Part shown: piece after piece, positions 23,621 to 31,147 of the stretch
Layout of the letters: every line of letters starts with the position of its first letter
Position numbering within the stretch: the first letter of the stretch is position 1
DNA from: a virus
Length of the DNA: 31,147 nucleotides
Virus record (IMG/VR): IMGVR_UViG_3300009104_000076
Span: 1 to 31,147 of that record
Strand: one strand, 5' to 3'
Position numbers and translations under genes: made by a program
The notes under the pieces: generated by a model
The model's database searches: none
What the model was told of the DNA's origin: nothing
Seen by the model: only the letters and a program-made list of their open reading frames with translations

Positions 23621-23845
23621 ATGCCGTTTTATAGTTATCGTTGTAATCAATGTGGTTTTACTGATGAAGCATTTGTTGATGTAAATAAAAGAGATAAGAA
23701 ATGGCCTTGTGAACAAGAAGGTTGTACTGGTGTTATGGAAAGGGAAATTGATGCCCCATCATTTAAGTTGAAGGGTGATGGGTGGTATAAAGATGGTTAT
23801 AGTAAGAAACCTAAACCGAAACCAAAAGAGGAAAAGAAAGAATGA
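23621..23845 (+). CDS. FmdB-like zinc-ribbon protein
   Basis: A 74-residue protein whose N-terminus 'MPFYSYRCNQCGFTDEAF' is typical of the FmdB/'putative regulatory' zinc-ribbon family. C8-x2-C11 and C30-x4-C35 form the ribbon, followed by 'VMEREIDAPSFKLKGDGWYK' and a Lys/Pro tail. Members are small, often annotated as regulators, with poorly known roles; they occur in several phages. GAGG precedes the ATG. It overlaps the proline dehydrogenase start by 4 bp. Confidence 0.8.
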   Translation: MPFYSYRCNQCGFTDEAFVDVNKRDKKWPCEQEGCTGVMEREIDAPSFKLKGDGWYKDGYSKKPKPKPKEEKKE

Positions 23846-24762
23846 AACTCTTATATCCATTTGCAAAACGATTTATTGCTGGGCATGATTTTGATTCTGC
23901 TAAACCAGTAATTGATGATCTATTGCTTGATGGATTTGAAATTTCAATAGACTACTTAGGTGAATTAAGTAAGACTAAAGACGATTGTGAAAAAGCATAT
24001 AGACAATATACAAATATCATTTCTCATTATTCTAGAATTGGAAAAAAAATTGATCTATCTATTAAACCATCACAACTAGGTTTAAAACTAGATATAGGGT
24101 ATTGTCGAAAGATGATACAGAGTCTTGCTTTTCTAGCAGATCATAATGGTATGACAGTTAGATTGGATATGGAAGATTCTTCTTTAACACAAGATACTAT
24201 TGACTTGTGTTTTGAATTAAGAGATCATTCTAATAATGTTGGAATAGCATTACAAAGTAATTTATTTAGAACTGCAAAAGATATTCAGAATTTATTAGAT
24301 GCTAAGATTTCTTTAAGAATTGTTAAAGGTGCATATAAGGAAACTAATAAAGAAGCATATCAAAATAAAAAACAAATCAGGCAACTGTTTATAAAAAATA
24401 TATTTCAGATTATTACAAATAGGTGTCGATCATATTATCACTTTAAAGATATTACAACTCCTGTATCTGCTGTAGGTACACATGATGAATATGTATTAAT
24501 GGAAGTTGTAAAGAACATGAAGAAGTTTAATGTTTCAAAAGATGATATGGATTTTGAATTGCTGTACGGCATCCGTAGAGATTTAAGTAGGGAATTAATG
24601 AAGAAGGGGTATAAGGTTCGGTTATATGTTCCATTCGGAACTGAATGGTTGCCATACACTTTACGAAGATTAAGAGAGTATGATAATATGAAAATGGTAT
24701 TAGTTAACGTAATTAAGGAGCTATGGAATGGAAGAAAGACCGACAGATTTGAAATTGCATGA
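23842..24762 (+). CDS. Proline dehydrogenase (FAD-dependent), auxiliary metabolic gene
   Basis: A 306-residue protein matching monofunctional proline dehydrogenases (about 300 residues), which oxidise L-proline to pyrroline-5-carboxylate and pass electrons to the quinone pool. Along the beta/alpha barrel one sees 'RFIAGHDFDSA', 'GFEISIDYLGE', 'MTVRLDMEDSSLTQDTIDLC', 'VGIALQSNLFRTAKDIQNLL', 'LRIVKGAYKE' (K162, FAD contact), 'VGTHDEYV' (H214) and 'FELLYGIRRDL'. The C-terminal 'LPYTLRRLRE' (R275, R276) binds the proline carboxylate in known enzymes. It has no P5C dehydrogenase domain. It overlaps FmdB by 4 bp and the oxygenase gene by 35 bp, so it belongs to the 47/46 operon. Confidence 0.88.
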   Translation: MKLLYPFAKRFIAGHDFDSAKPVIDDLLLDGFEISIDYLGELSKTKDDCEKAYRQYTNIISHYSRIGKKIDLSIKPSQLGLKLDIGYCRKMIQSLAFLADHNGMTVRLDMEDSSLTQDTIDLCFELRDHSNNVGIALQSNLFRTAKDIQNLLDAKISLRIVKGAYKETNKEAYQNKKQIRQLFIKNIFQIITNRCRSYYHFKDITTPVSAVGTHDEYVLMEVVKNMKKFNVSKDDMDFELLYGIRRDLSRELMKKGYKVRLYVPFGTEWLPYTLRRLREYDNMKMVLVNVIKELWNGRKTDRFEIA

Positions 24763-25919: not shown

Positions 25920-26888
25920 ATGGATTTAACATTATGGGCTTTACTTGGTTTTATTTTTGCGGTTTATGCAGTAACAGCAAATGATAGTATTCAAACTTTA
26001 GGAACATATATTTCATCCAATGCCGATATTAAATGGTATTGGATGTTTGGTTATATGGGTACTATTTTTGTTGGTACAATGTTATATGGATTTGGAATTT
26101 ATGATCCAGCATTCGGTAGATTAGAGAAGTTCCCCACAGTAGAAGTTCAATGGTATCATGCCGTAGCACCTATGATACTAGTTGCACTTACTCGCCTAAA
26201 GATTCCTGTATCAACTACCTTTTTAGTTTTATCAGTATTTGCTTCATCCGTAGTAATGGAGAAAATGTTAATTAAAAGTTTTCTCGGTTATGCTGTATCT
26301 TTTGTTTTTGCGTTTGGTTCATGGTATCTTATAAGTAAGTATATCTTGAATGAAGGACAAAAGGGGCAGGATAAACATAACCTCTATTGGAGATATGGCC
26401 AATGGATTACTACTGGATGGTTATGGGCAACATGGTTACAACATGATATGGCGAACATCATGGTATTCCTTCCAAGATATCATCCAGCTGGAAATGGTAG
26501 TTACGAATTACTTGTTATCGGAGTAATGTTAGTTGGACTTGCTTTTATGTTTTGGGAACGTGGTGGAAGGATTCAAGAAATTGTATTATCTAAAACCAAT
26601 ACAAGATATGTTCGATCTGCAACATTGATTGATCTGGTTTATTGTTTCGTATTATATTTCTTTAAAGAATTAAACAATATTCCAATGTCAACAACATTTG
26701 TTTTTATGGGAATGTTAGCAGGAAGGGAAATGGGTATTTGGATGGACATGGGATATGGAAATCTAACATACACAAAACGACATAAGAAAGCAATATTTCC
26801 AATGCTGTACACAGACTTTTTAAGACTAATGCTGGGATTAGCTGTTAGTGTAACTATGGCATACGGAGTTTTTTATCTAAATAATTAA
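25920..26888 (+). CDS. PiT-family phosphate permease-like protein
   Basis: A 322-residue membrane protein with about eight to ten hydrophobic helices. It shows the internal duplication of the PiT/PHO4 family: 'TANDSIQTLGTY' (19-30) and 'LQHDMANIMVFLP' (173-185) correspond to the paired G-x-N-D signature loops, and 'IPVSTTF' (95-101) and 'IPMSTTF' (254-260) to the paired P-x-S-T-T-H loops. PiT proteins import phosphate with cations. It is shorter than cellular members (about 400-500 residues), lacking the long central loop. There is no own RBS; it follows the lipoprotein by one base. Confidence 0.8.
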   Translation: MDLTLWALLGFIFAVYAVTANDSIQTLGTYISSNADIKWYWMFGYMGTIFVGTMLYGFGIYDPAFGRLEKFPTVEVQWYHAVAPMILVALTRLKIPVSTTFLVLSVFASSVVMEKMLIKSFLGYAVSFVFAFGSWYLISKYILNEGQKGQDKHNLYWRYGQWITTGWLWATWLQHDMANIMVFLPRYHPAGNGSYELLVIGVMLVGLAFMFWERGGRIQEIVLSKTNTRYVRSATLIDLVYCFVLYFFKELNNIPMSTTFVFMGMLAGREMGIWMDMGYGNLTYTKRHKKAIFPMLYTDFLRLMLGLAVSVTMAYGVFYLNN

Positions 26889-26969: not shown

Positions 26970-27392
26970 ATGACTTTTATGACTAAAAGAAAACCTTATA
27001 CATTTGATTCACTAAGTCCGTTTCCAAATTGGTTAGAATTTGATAGGTGGGATGATTGGTTCAATTCTGGACTTGAACAATATGAACGCCCGTTAAATAA
27101 ATATCGTTGGGATGAAACGGAAGAAGAATATCGAATTGATATGGTTATGCCAGGCATGACTAAAAAGGATATTGATATATCTTTTAAGAATGAAATGCTT
27201 ACTGTTAAATGCAAGAGAGAGGTTTCTGAAAAGGATCAAAAATTCTTTGGTATAAAAACCGAACAATCCTTTAAGAACTTTCCGAGTGGAATAGACTCAA
27301 GTAAAATTTCTGCGGAAATGGGTGATGGTATTTTAACTATTAAACTCCCAAAAAGAGAAGCAGATAAACCGAAGTACATTGACATTAAATAG
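26970..27392 (+). CDS. Small heat-shock protein Hsp20
   Basis: A 140-residue alpha-crystallin-domain chaperone. The domain runs from about residue 45 ('RWDETEEEYRIDMVMPGMTK') to 130, with 'FKNFPSGIDSSKISAEMGDG' followed by ILTIKLPK, the conserved end of the domain, and a C-terminal 'YIDIK' that carries an I-x-I-like oligomerisation motif. Hsp20 genes are frequent in marine T4-like phages and are thought to protect phage or host proteins during infection. AAGGAG lies 9 nt upstream. Confidence 0.92.
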   Translation: MTFMTKRKPYTFDSLSPFPNWLEFDRWDDWFNSGLEQYERPLNKYRWDETEEEYRIDMVMPGMTKKDIDISFKNEMLTVKCKREVSEKDQKFFGIKTEQSFKNFPSGIDSSKISAEMGDGILTIKLPKREADKPKYIDIK

Positions 27393-27592: not shown

Positions 27593-27663
27593 CCCTATAT
27601 AACTAAAGGAGTTATAGTGAAAATCCCGTAACTCCTTTGTTTATAGGGGTTTATGTTTTTTTT
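27593..27663 (+). terminator. Large hairpin with T tract after the hsp20 unit
   Basis: CCCTATA (27593-27599), AAC (27601-27603) and AAAGGAGTTA (27605-27614) pair with TAACTCCTTT (27629-27638), GTT (27639-27641) and TATAGGG (27642-27648): 20 pairs with two single-base bulges and a 14-base loop. A run of eight T follows at 27656-27663. It is probably a terminator for the hsp20 transcript. The 12-mer ACCCCTAACCCT at 27585-27596 overlaps its base and recurs at 30155. The rest of the gap to 27786 holds the promoter at 27728. Confidence 0.75.
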
Positions 27664-27727: not shown

Positions 27728-27756
27728 TTGACATTATTCCCCTATTTTGATAGGCT
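27728..27756 (+). promoter_or_regulatory. Early-type promoter before the metallopeptidase gene
   Basis: TTGACA, 17 nt ending CTATTTTGA, then TAGGCT, preceded by TTTCC. It is the best member of the promoter family in the window. Predicted start is about 27763, just before the RBS GAGAGGA. Confidence 0.8.
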
Positions 27757-27786: not shown

Positions 27787-30129
27787 ATGACTGAAAAAAC
27801 TGTAAAGATTGAATCTAAAGAAAAACTCGCCAAACTCTTAGCGATGGAAGATTTAGACATTCAACATAAGCAAGTTCGTACTGCTATGTTTGATGTTAAA
27901 AACCGTTGCTTAGTCCTGCCCATTTGGAAGGACGTTTCCAATAACCTTTATGATCTATTAGTTGGACATGAAGTTGGACACGCTCTTTTCACTCCTAATA
28001 ATGAAGAAAAACTTAAAGGCTTAATAAAGAAATCTTCTAAACATTGTGTGAATGTTGTTGAAGATGCTCGCATTGAATCTTTAATGAAACGCAAGTATCC
28101 AGGCTTGGTTAAATCTTTCTATAAAGGTTATGGTGAATTAGTTAAGAAAGATTTTTTCGGTTTGAATGAAATGGATTTTGATAAAATTAATTTGTTGGAT
28201 AAACTTAATTTGCATTTTAAAATTCCTTCAGCAGTTGCTGGTTGTTTTGAGTTTAATAAAACTGAACAATCATTTGTTAATCGTATTGAGAAAATTAAGA
28301 AGTTTGAAGAACTTGAAAAGATTTGTGTAGATATTTGTAAGTACATTAAAGAGAATCGTACTGAAGAAGAAGAGCAAGAGTCAAAATATTTTGATAAAGA
28401 CTCTGAAAATTATTCAAATGATAATATTGAATTTGAAGATGAAGAAAATAATGAGTCTGGTGAAGATGCTGATTCTAATGAAGATACTGAGCAGGGTTCA
28501 TCTGATGAAGATAATGAGGAAGATGAATCCGAGGAAAGTGAATCAGAAAAAGAATCTGCTTCTGATGAAGATAATTTAGAAGTTGAATCCGAAAAAAAGG
28601 ATGCGATTGGTACAGCAACTAATAATGCTGACCATGAAGAAGATTTCGTACCCGAAGATTTAAAGTCAAAAACTCTTGAGAATGTTGAAAAAGAATTAGA
28701 AAAAATTACTGATAATAAATCTGATAATGAATATGTTACTTTGCCAAAAACTGTATTGGATAATAATATTAATGATTATAAAGATGCATGGAAACCTTTT
28801 AAGAAGTTTTATGATCTAGAGACATATCGCTCAGTTGCATCTCAAGGTTCTGAAGCAATTCGTAGAAATTATGATTGGTCTTTTGAAACTGAATCAAGGT
28901 TTTTAAATGATAAAGAAATGATCTTTAAATCAGCAAAGGAAACATTGGATAAGATTAAAAAAGAATCTTCTAAGAATGTTGCTCACATGGCTATGGAGTT
29001 TGAAAGAAAGAAGTCTGCTGATGTTTATAAAAGAACTTCATTCTCTAAAACTGGTGTTTTAGATACAAACAAAATGTTCTCTGCTAAATATAATGATGAT
29101 ATATTTAAAAAGAATATTCGCACGCCTGATGGTAAGAATCATGGTCTTTGTATGTTCGTAGATTGGTCTGGTTCAATGGCACCTAACATGGCGGGATGTA
29201 TCAAGCAGTTAATTGAATTGATGTTGTTCTGTAAGAAAGTTAATATCCCATTTGAAGTTTATTCTTTTACGGATGTAAGTGCGGATTCTAATAATAAAGC
29301 ACTTTCTTTCAAATATGGACATGGTGATTTAGTTTGCGATAAGAGAGTTACCTTGAATAATTACTTTTCAAGTCGAATGAGTACTAGAGACTTTAATGAT
29401 GCTCTTTTAAACATGACTGTTATTTCTAATTCCTTTCGAGGCGGATATCAGTACTACCCTATTCCAAGTGAAGATAGACTTGGTTATACACCTCTTAATG
29501 GTTCTATTATTGCTTCTGAGAAAATCATTCGGGAATTTAAATCAAGGAATTCACTTGATAAGGTTCATGGTGTTTGGATAACAGATGGCGAAGGTAATAA
29601 CTGTATTGCAAAAAAGGAACTTAATGAACATGGCATTCTGACAGATAAGGGTGTTAACAATTACTCAAATAATTTATATGTTCAAGATACTATTATGAAA
29701 AAGAATTATCGTGTTACAGGACGAAAATTGACCCCTACTCTTTTTAAGATTCTTAAAGATCGTTTGGGTTGTAATGTAGTAGGATTTTTCTTGGATGGTA
29801 ATTTTGGAAAGAAAAGTGGTATGATGAAATATTGGTATGATGCAATTCAGAGTAATACGCATCAATTTCCAAAAGAACAAAGATACCCAAATCGGATTGA
29901 CCAGAATGCTTGGTTACAAAAATGTAAGAAGGATGGATTCTTAATTAAATCATCTGCTGGTTATGATGAATATTATGTTATCAATAATGCCCCGATAGTA
30001 GATAAGACTGTTGACATTGAAGAAAAAATGACTGCTCGAAGAATGGCCACTCTATTCTCAGCGAAGTCAACTCAATTCAAAAAGTCTAGGGTTATATTGA
30101 GTAAGTTTATTGATCTAATAACCGTTTAA
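27787..30129 (+). CDS. HExxH metallopeptidase with VWA domain (CobT-like partner of AAA+ ATPase)
   Basis: A 780-residue protein. The N-terminal domain has the zinc motif 'HEVGH' (61-65) and the downstream 'NVVEDARIE' (E92-E97 region), giving a likely third zinc ligand. Residues about 190-290 form a very acidic, Asp/Glu/Ser-rich linker. The C-terminal third has a von Willebrand A domain: MIDAS 'VDWSGSM' at 458-464 and later 'GVWITDGEGNN'. VWA proteins with MoxR/CobS-type AAA+ partners act as ATP-driven chaperones or metal-insertion systems, and a CobS-like ATPase follows. I start at ATG 27787 (RBS GAGAGGA, 9 nt before); an in-frame TTG at 27769 overlaps that RBS. Confidence 0.85.
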   Translation: MTEKTVKIESKEKLAKLLAMEDLDIQHKQVRTAMFDVKNRCLVLPIWKDVSNNLYDLLVGHEVGHALFTPNNEEKLKGLIKKSSKHCVNVVEDARIESLMKRKYPGLVKSFYKGYGELVKKDFFGLNEMDFDKINLLDKLNLHFKIPSAVAGCFEFNKTEQSFVNRIEKIKKFEELEKICVDICKYIKENRTEEEEQESKYFDKDSENYSNDNIEFEDEENNESGEDADSNEDTEQGSSDEDNEEDESEESESEKESASDEDNLEVESEKKDAIGTATNNADHEEDFVPEDLKSKTLENVEKELEKITDNKSDNEYVTLPKTVLDNNINDYKDAWKPFKKFYDLETYRSVASQGSEAIRRNYDWSFETESRFLNDKEMIFKSAKETLDKIKKESSKNVAHMAMEFERKKSADVYKRTSFSKTGVLDTNKMFSAKYNDDIFKKNIRTPDGKNHGLCMFVDWSGSMAPNMAGCIKQLIELMLFCKKVNIPFEVYSFTDVSADSNNKALSFKYGHGDLVCDKRVTLNNYFSSRMSTRDFNDALLNMTVISNSFRGGYQYYPIPSEDRLGYTPLNGSIIASEKIIREFKSRNSLDKVHGVWITDGEGNNCIAKKELNEHGILTDKGVNNYSNNLYVQDTIMKKNYRVTGRKLTPTLFKILKDRLGCNVVGFFLDGNFGKKSGMMKYWYDAIQSNTHQFPKEQRYPNRIDQNAWLQKCKKDGFLIKSSAGYDEYYVINNAPIVDKTVDIEEKMTARRMATLFSAKSTQFKKSRVILSKFIDLITV

Positions 30130-30134
30130 TACAA

Positions 30135-30206
30135 GCGATTTTAAGCGGTTTTTAACCCCTAACCCTTACTCTGGTATGGGTTTTTAATAAAAACCGCTTA
30201 AATCGC
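30135..30206 (+). other. Long hairpin after the metallopeptidase gene
   Basis: GCGATTTTAAGCGGTTTTTA (30135-30154) pairs with the 19-base arm 30188-30206 (TAAAAACCGCTTAAATCGC) with one bulged T. The 33-base apical part contains a second short stem, AACCC (30161-30165) with GGGTT (30178-30182), and the 12-mer ACCCCTAACCCT (30155-30166). No good T tract follows on either strand, so simple termination is doubtful; mRNA end protection, processing or a DNA-level role are options. Confidence 0.75.
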
Positions 30207-30255
30207 ATTTCAGTTCGTTTTATAAACCTTTGTAAAATAAGGAGTTACAAACAAG

Positions 30256-30312
30256 ATGAAAACCTCTTTAAAATCAAGGACTTACAGACACAATTATTTT
30301 GCTATAAAGTAA
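30256..30312 (+). CDS. Possible 18-residue basic peptide
   Basis: ATG 30256 opens an 18-codon frame (MKTSLKSRTYRHNYFAIK) ended by TAA, with AAGGAG 11 nt upstream. It lies between the long hairpin and the next promoter. An RBS in an otherwise noncoding gap is the only support besides the basic composition. It could be a leader peptide, a decayed gene end or chance. Confidence 0.25.
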   Translation: MKTSLKSRTYRHNYFAIK

Positions 30313-30321
30313 AGATTTTCC

Positions 30322-30350
30322 TTGACAATTTGAGCATAATTTGATAAGCT
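30322..30350 (+). promoter_or_regulatory. Early-type promoter before the AAA+ ATPase gene
   Basis: TTGACA, 17 nt ending ATAATTTGA, then TAAGCT, preceded by TTTCC. Predicted start is about 30357, ahead of the RBS AGGAG near 30375. It closely matches the promoter at 27728. Confidence 0.78.
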
Positions 30351-30389
30351 GTATAAAGATAAAAATTAATTGATAGGAGCACATATATT

Positions 30390-31147
30390 ATGATTGACAT
30401 GAATAAGAATGAAACTCGCCAAACCTTTAAAGCAGAAATTGATAAACTGTATGGTGATGGCACTTTCACTACTGGACAAGCATATAAGGCTTGTATTTCT
30501 TCTGGCCTGCCTGAAAGTACTTGGTCTGGAATTTATGCTTTGTTGCGTAAACATTGTCGAACTGATGAGCGTGGCGTTTTAACTTTCAAAGACCGCTGTG
30601 GTACTGAAGCAAATGCTAAACCTTCAAAAGAAGTTATTAAGAAAAAGGTTAAGAAAAGTGTTGCTGATGATAGAGCACTTTTAAATGAATCTGTAGTTGC
30701 TCCAACTACTCCTAAAAAAGATTTAACAGTAAAGACTGCTTCAAATACTGTTATTAATCTTATTCCTAAAAAAGACCCCACTTATGTAACGTGGGGGCAT
30801 TTCAAAGATATTAAATCTGTTTTAGAATCTAAAATCTTTTATCCGATTTTTGTAACTGGTTTATCGGGTAATGGTAAAACTTCCATGATAAGAGAAGTTT
30901 GTGCTAAACTGAAACGTGATATGGTTCGGGTAAACATTACTGTTGAAACGGATGAAGATGATTTGCTCGGCGGTTTTCGTTTGGTAAATGGTGAAACAGT
31001 TTGGCAGGATGGCCCGTTGGTTGTTGCTATGAAAACTGGTGCTGTTGCATTGATTGATGAAGTTGATCTTGCATCCCATAAAATCATGTGTCTCCAACCT
31101 ATCATGGAAGGACAACCGATTTATCTGAAAAAGATTAATGAAGTTGT
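30390..31147 (+). CDS. cobS: CobS/MoxR-like AAA+ ATPase, truncated by the window end
   Basis: The first 252 residues of a protein that continues past the window. Residues 1-130 form an N-terminal region with a small helical 'TFTTGQAYKACISSGLPEST' segment and a Lys-rich linker. The AAA+ core has Walker A 'GLSGNGKT' (157-164), 'DEDDLLGGFRLVNGETVW' typical of the MoxR/CobS branch, and Walker B 'VALIDEVDLAS' (D223, E224), then 'LQPIMEGQPI'. Marine T4-like phages often carry such a gene annotated as cobaltochelatase subunit CobS; actual cobalt insertion is unproven. The VWA/metallopeptidase gene just upstream is its likely partner. The symbol is by phage convention. Confidence 0.88.
   Translation, partial: MIDMNKNETRQTFKAEIDKLYGDGTFTTGQAYKACISSGLPESTWSGIYALLRKHCRTDERGVLTFKDRCGTEANAKPSKEVIKKKVKKSVADDRALLNESVVAPTTPKKDLTVKTASNTVINLIPKKDPTYVTWGHFKDIKSVLESKIFYPIFVTGLSGNGKTSMIREVCAKLKRDMVRVNITVETDEDDLLGGFRLVNGETVWQDGPLVVAMKTGAVALIDEVDLASHKIMCLQPIMEGQPIYLKKINEV

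Follow-up and report, generated by a model that had tools for sequence, protein, structure and literature searches.

Two adjacent genes at the end of a virus contig encode what we read, with a probability of about one half, as a single ATP-driven MoxR-VWA remodelling machine whose zinc peptidase would cleave a client protein, and not as a cobaltochelatase. The contig, IMG/VR record IMGVR_UViG_3300009104_000076, was analysed over its whole length of 31,147 bases (the window) and is a fragment of a T4-like myovirus, as judged from T4-type terminase and UvsW domains together with a recombination nuclease and tail- and capsid-type open reading frames. The two genes are as follows.

27787..30129, + strand: metallopeptidase-VWA protein of 780 amino acids, a member of phrog_459 'peptidase', published as phage CobT
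30390..31147, + strand: MoxR/CobS-branch AAA+ ATPase gene (AAA_5, phrog_249), running off the contig end with 252 amino acids readable

The match of the first protein to phrog_459 extends over residues 6-778 (E 5.5e-180), and the ATPase matches phrog_249, labelled 'porphyrin biosynthesis' (E 6.2e-55). The pair is already known. The gene cobS is one of 25 cyanophage core genes (Sullivan et al. 2010, PMC3037559), and Liu et al. 2021 (PMC8651126) have described the 'peptidase + cobS' of T4-like cyanophages as a viral 'cobST' cluster that hijacks host CobN, calling the 'peptidase' label a mistaken annotation. The window carries the same two families in the same order and in the same T4-like gene neighbourhood. 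Our tests speak against the published reading, which is probably wrong on one testable point: the zinc site is invariant and CobN is missing, and both conflict with a function in cobalt chelation (PMC8651126).

The evidence for the peptidase begins with the N-terminal part of the 780-residue protein.

27808..28386, + strand: N-terminal zincin-like domain, residues 8-200, placed from the model and the nearest PDB folds
27967..27981, + strand: HEVGH zinc-site motif, residues 61-65
28051..28077, + strand: NVVEDARIE motif with E92, the probable third metal ligand

Homologues were gathered with three baits (the motif-bearing N-domain, the VWA region only and the ATPase) to avoid circularity. The single window protein used as a query returned 1 locus, and an alignment query was needed to find its relatives. 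HExxH was present in 72/72 VWA-baited and 44/44 AAA-baited proteins that include an N-terminus, and in all 26 of the proteins from prokaryote genome contigs. It was also present in 79/79 of the motif-baited set, which we rejected as evidence of conservation when taken alone because its bait included the motif. The loci returned are the best-scoring of larger sets, and the invariance of HExxH is therefore a statement about T4-like relatives. In an alignment of 114 T4-like homologues, the most distant sharing 27% identity with the query, H61, E62, H65, N89, E92, D93, R95 and the metal-ion-dependent adhesion site (MIDAS) of the VWA domain are invariant; within the MIDAS this holds for D459, S461, S463 and D600, with T568 kept in at least 90% of sequences. 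Homologues missing the stricter ED.RI pattern carry ED.RV instead. The preliminary description had named loss of HExxH from most homologues as one of the findings that would count against its reading, and the motif is kept in all T4-like homologues checked.

Modelled alone, the N-domain has a mean predicted local distance difference test score (pLDDT) of 90.3 and a predicted template modelling score (pTM) of 0.84, with HExxH in a helix at residues 52-68 and E92 in a helix at residues 85-103. Its fold neighbours in the PDB are selecase, jannalysin, ArdC, BlaR1, PprI, ZMPSTE24 and Wss1, all of them zincin-type metallopeptidases. The order of elements, an HExxH helix after a small sheet and then a glutamate-bearing helix, is that of the minigluzincins (selecase and jannalysin) and other zincins. 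Those proteins are stand-alone or occur in other contexts, and we know of no zincin that is fused to a VWA domain and driven by a AAA+ partner. A whole-family sequence-profile search of the PDB matched only the acidic linker, to unrelated acidic stretches. From the conserved residues and the predicted fold, the N-domain is probably a retained and active zinc peptidase, in which zinc binding, protease activity and a substrate are predicted features.

The remainder of the protein and the ATPase have the parts expected of a MoxR-VWA system.

28390..28629, + strand: acidic disordered linker, residues 202-281 (model pLDDT <50)
29134..29796, + strand: VWA domain, about residues 450-670, placed from PDB fold matches
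29161..29178, + strand: MIDAS motif DWSGSM, residues 459-464, completed by T568 (29488) and D600 (29584)
29608..29715, + strand: beta-hairpin insert after the MIDAS aspartate, residues 608-643, with strands in the model; candidate VWA 'finger' entering the ATPase pore
30858..30881, + strand: Walker A, GLSGNGKT, read in the ATPase sequence
31047..31067, + strand: Walker B, ALIDEVD, read in the ATPase sequence

The full-length model of the metallopeptidase-VWA protein (pLDDT 82.7, pTM 0.81) and the sequence bear out the architecture first described: HEVGH and an acidic linker, then at the C-terminus a VWA domain in which the MIDAS is complete. The invariant HExxH and the zincin fold neighbours speak likewise for the view, taken in the preliminary description, of a metallopeptidase-like N-domain fused to VWA. 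The length of 780 residues is counted from an ATG, and starting instead from a TTG (27769) would lengthen the protein by 6. The best PDB fold matches of the VWA domain (Foldseek) are to the NorD VWA in NorQ-NorD complexes (E 1.8e-6). In the ATPase, the AAA_5 match of the window sequence (60.4 bits) and both Walker motifs are joined by a CbbQ_C-type C-terminus, seen in the syn9 homologue (28.2 bits, cut-off 20.6). Because the window ATPase ends at the contig end, this C-terminus, sensor 1 and the arginine finger are visible in homologues only, one of which has a full length of 406 amino acids. These features place the ATPase in the MoxR branch of AAA+ proteins, and its linked VWA partner with an intact MIDAS (DxSxS-T-D) gives the combination expected of a MoxR-VWA pair.

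The two genes travel together. Relatives of the peptidase occur in 463 phage-collection records, mostly from cyanophages but also from Pelagibacter, Stenotrophomonas, Pseudoalteromonas and Ochrobactrum phages, and the record counts are equal for both genes (365 Synechococcus, 61 Cyanophage and 24 Prochlorococcus phage records). The window holds a divergent member of the pair, with about 33% identity to Pelagibacter phage HTVC008M. As the preliminary description had proposed, the peptidase gene and the MoxR/CobS-branch ATPase gene are linked: the former lies upstream of the latter on the same strand in 60 of the 61 informative AAA-baited loci. The pair is found among replication genes in T4-like phages, in DLP6, in the SSU5/RHEph10/Nickievirus group and in Zobellviridae. 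AAA+ genes of Staphylococcus, Listeria and Enterococcus phages also match the ATPase; in those fetched, the next gene has neither HExxH nor a MIDAS, and we do not count them as this pair.

The position within the replication module is one of two observations that would suit an antirestriction or anti-defence protease acting on a host DNA-bound protein extracted by the AAA+ ring, the other being the presence of ArdC (an antirestriction protein), PprI and Wss1 among the N-domain fold neighbours. We nevertheless give this idea little credence. ArdC, PprI and Wss1 are all simply zincins, in a fold search with weak E-values, and the pair is present across cyanophage genomes, whereas most anti-defence genes are patchy.

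For the remodelling machine with a peptidase, a mechanical parallel is the NorQ-NorD system, in which a finger of the VWA domain reaches into the pore of the ATPase, and hydrolysis of ATP makes this domain twist against the N-domain by way of a linker (PMC13036017, PMC9976466). NorQ-NorD and CbbQ-CbbO share with the window pair a MoxR-branch ATPase, a VWA partner and a disordered linker, and finger-in-pore docking is likely shared as well. Because the phage layout of N-domain, disordered linker and VWA domain with the 608-643 hairpin is comparable to that of NorD, we infer the same motor action, with the hairpin as a candidate pore finger by analogy with the NorD finger (PMC9976466). The ATPase would form a hexameric ring, like NorQ and CobS; the partner VWA domain would dock on this ring, probably with its hairpin in the pore, and the MIDAS would hold the client protein, as proposed from NorQD. 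The N-domain would be a zincin-fold zinc metallopeptidase with H61, H65 and probably E92 as ligands and E62 as the catalytic residue. An ATP-driven twist of the linked domains would then present a stretch of the client to the zinc site for selective cleavage. In most of the phage lineages examined the two genes sit among replication genes, which makes a host or phage protein important in the DNA replication phase the most likely client. The early action on host proteins that the preliminary description proposed would be a further prediction. The conserved site, the layout of the domains, the pairing and the lack of CobN in the phages are observed, and the hexamer, the complex, the zinc, the cleavage and the client are predicted from them.

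The same parallel supports a different reading, that the pair is a NorQD-like chaperone for metal insertion or assembly without proteolysis, in which the HExxH/E site holds or senses the delivered metal (for example for ribonucleotide reductase) or binds a structural zinc. NorQD inserts iron by means of a MoxR ring and a VWA partner (PMC13036017, PMC9976466), the window VWA fold is nearest to NorD, and the loss of the site from some phages and from CobT, described below, shows that the remodelling part can work alone. We consider a non-proteolytic chaperone unlikely, while giving it serious weight. The catalytic glutamate E62 is as strictly kept as the histidine ligands, which pure metal binding does not need, and the nearest folds of the N-domain are peptidases. 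The N-terminal domain of NorD is described as target-specific and not conserved among VWA partners (PMC9976466), and a search of that paper found no mention of HExxH. An analogous combination is seen in DUF2201 (PF13203), in which an HExxH domain is fused to a VWA-like domain; in one gammaproteobacterial metagenome-assembled genome, such a putative metallopeptidase-VWA gene adjoins a AAA+ ATPase gene. The window protein differs from DUF2201 in having no PF13203 match up to E 1, and the sequences after HExxH are unlike.

We compared the pair with the chromosomal cobaltochelatase subunits CobS and CobT, where a AAA+ ring subunit is likewise joined by a partner built of an N-domain, a linker rich in acidic residues and a VWA domain with a MIDAS. 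The published proposal (Liu et al. 2021, PMC8651126) is that viral CobST replaces host CobS and CobT and drives cobalt insertion by host CobN, or by a mosaic of CobN and Mg-chelatase, so that more cobalamin is available for nucleotide synthesis. Several observations agree with it: full-length phage ATPases match CobS in the PDB (7.6e-18) and match the CobS equivalog model TIGR01650 below its cut-off, bridging phage proteins exceed the Pfam CobT cut-offs, and CobN-family proteins exist in Synechococcus elongatus and Haloferax volcanii. The window pair itself scores below the model cut-offs of both subunits. Its 780-residue protein reaches 14 of the 26.1 bits required for Pfam CobT and has no match to CobT_C, while the ATPase, incomplete at the contig end, scores 20 bits against TIGR01650 and full-length T4-like ATPases score 59-95 bits (cut-off 558.55).

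The search for cobN, set as a check by the preliminary description, covered 13 complete phage genomes and 5 viral contigs and detected no member of the CobN family in any of them. Nor was there a CobN match in an E. coli control genome, yet the pair is carried by the Escherichia phages Cyrano and PhiR41_1 (listed host E. coli K-12). Among 27 sampled alphaproteobacterial genomes that have CobT, CobN was not found in 12, some of which are possibly incomplete; a Caulobacter vibrioides control also showed no CobN-family gene. Genomes with CobT and no CobN suggest that pairs of this type probably have other tasks in bacteria as well, and that chromosomal CobST may not always be a chelatase. A role in chelation would moreover leave the invariant HExxH unexplained, and on this evidence the cobalamin proposal appears improbable to us. 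Databases class the pair as a vitamin B12 enzyme. Because the true B12 subunit lacks the zinc-protease site and its viral counterpart keeps it, it is more likely that the viral pair cuts or reshapes a protein than that it makes vitamin B12. With CobN absent and the site kept, the earlier preference for a function other than cobalamin synthesis stands as the better reading.

The relation between the phage N-domain and CobT became apparent through phage proteins that lie between the two. The protein of Rhizobium phage RHEph10 passes the cut-offs of Pfam CobT (26.3 bits, cut-off 26.1) and of CobT_C (121.6 bits) and has DHEVAHVLFT within its CobT domain. An HExxH site is also present in Salmonella SSU5, Escherichia Cyrano, a Klebsiella phage, Roseobacter CRP-810 and phage T5S1, and Vibrio MJW has HECYH with D replacing the downstream E. 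A profile of these intermediates (hhalign) recovers the N-domains of T4-like phages at E 1.5e-12 as well as chromosomal CobT at E 7e-10, and in the alignment phage RGFLDHEVAH lies over chromosomal RG.ADA.ALR. HExxH is found in 0/28 chromosomal CobT sequences, where the aligned segment is RGxxD-AxALR-like and has neither the two histidines nor the glutamate. Chromosomal CobT is thus related to the phage protein but has no zinc site. We withdrew an H[DN]xxxH motif as the chromosomal counterpart of HExxH, as the intermediates place the true counterpart a few residues earlier.

When the partner ATPases are placed in a tree, CobS from chromosomes forms one clade (support 98) beside the HExxH-bearing CRP-810 and T5S1 phages, and at least three zinc-site changes are needed. 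Because the tree is unrooted and some long branches leave its deep joins unsure, loss rather than gain of the site is the simplest reading of it and not a proof. We put forward only tentatively, and with more doubt than confidence, that viral 'CobST' is the ancestral and active AAA+-driven zinc protease, that bacterial CobT descends from it as an inactive protease with its motor-adaptor part turned to metal insertion, and that a gene pair widespread in abundant ocean phages has been misread as B12 metabolism.

Several observations weigh against an ATP-driven peptidase or against its kinship with CobT. At one T4-like locus (L238) the ATPase has no peptidase-VWA partner in 4.7 kb upstream, the only pairing failure among the AAA-baited loci that have over 1.2 kb of sequence before the ATPase. 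For DSL-LC01 and CRP-810 a setting within the replication module is not clear. The fold search of the N-domain, despite a best probability of 0.99 (selecase), is weak, with E 0.07 or worse and template modelling scores of about 0.25-0.45. Two phage lineages have lost the site, Nickievirus (DSEIAK) and Stenotrophomonas phage BUCTxx99 (DREVST), across three loci; these losses are apparently separate from that in chromosomal CobT, and the machine can apparently work without the site. A direct profile comparison of T4-like proteins with chromosomal CobT is borderline (E 0.0035) and too weak by itself, so that homology of the two N-domains rests on the phage intermediates. Zinc binding, peptidase activity, complex formation and the client are all predicted.

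The distinction matters because cobS is routinely classed among auxiliary metabolic genes, and viral control of ocean vitamin B12 is inferred from it. Should the two genes encode a protease or remodelling machine, this inference would no longer hold for hundreds of phage genomes, one collection alone having 463 records. The same reading, if true, would give T4-like marine phages a conserved function testable by a few point mutants, and would directly account for the origin of the CobT N-terminal domain.

We also examined the sequences upstream of each gene, where the preliminary description had reported near-identical promoters and presumed them to be early.

27605..27638, + strand: hairpin AAAGGAGTTA...TAACTCCTTT between the upstream genes and the peptidase gene, read in the sequence as a possible terminator
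27728..27756, + strand: promoter-like box TTGACA-N15-GATAGGCT, upstream of the peptidase-VWA gene
30322..30350, + strand: promoter-like box TTGACA-N15-GATAAGCT, upstream of the ATPase gene

The pattern TTGACA-N15-GATARGCT has two matches in the whole window (27728 and 30322), one before each gene, with 0.01 expected by chance, which agrees with the earlier report. In the closest relatives, both of these positions are occupied by consensus sigma-70 boxes, and a sigma-70 score of 11 or 12 of 12 was reached by 31/196 peptidase upstream regions and 34/183 ATPase upstream regions, compared with 1/379 shuffled sequences. A generic promoter scan gave no excess (16 found, 14.6 expected), so that only the specific shared box and the promoters of the relatives are informative. 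A terminator scan flags 27630-27651, overlapping the hairpin.

Shortly upstream of the pair lies an hsp20 gene (26970-27392, + strand; 66.9 bits), and in HTVC008M a heat shock protein gene is likewise near the pair, 0.9 kb downstream of cobS. Further upstream in the window, a 322-amino-acid membrane protein (25920-26888, + strand) matches the PHO4 phosphate transporter family below the threshold (24.8 bits, with 33.7 required), and the gene at 23842-24762 (+ strand) encodes a proline dehydrogenase-like protein (PF01619, 100.9 bits, E 1.2e-28), an unusual cargo for a T4-like phage.

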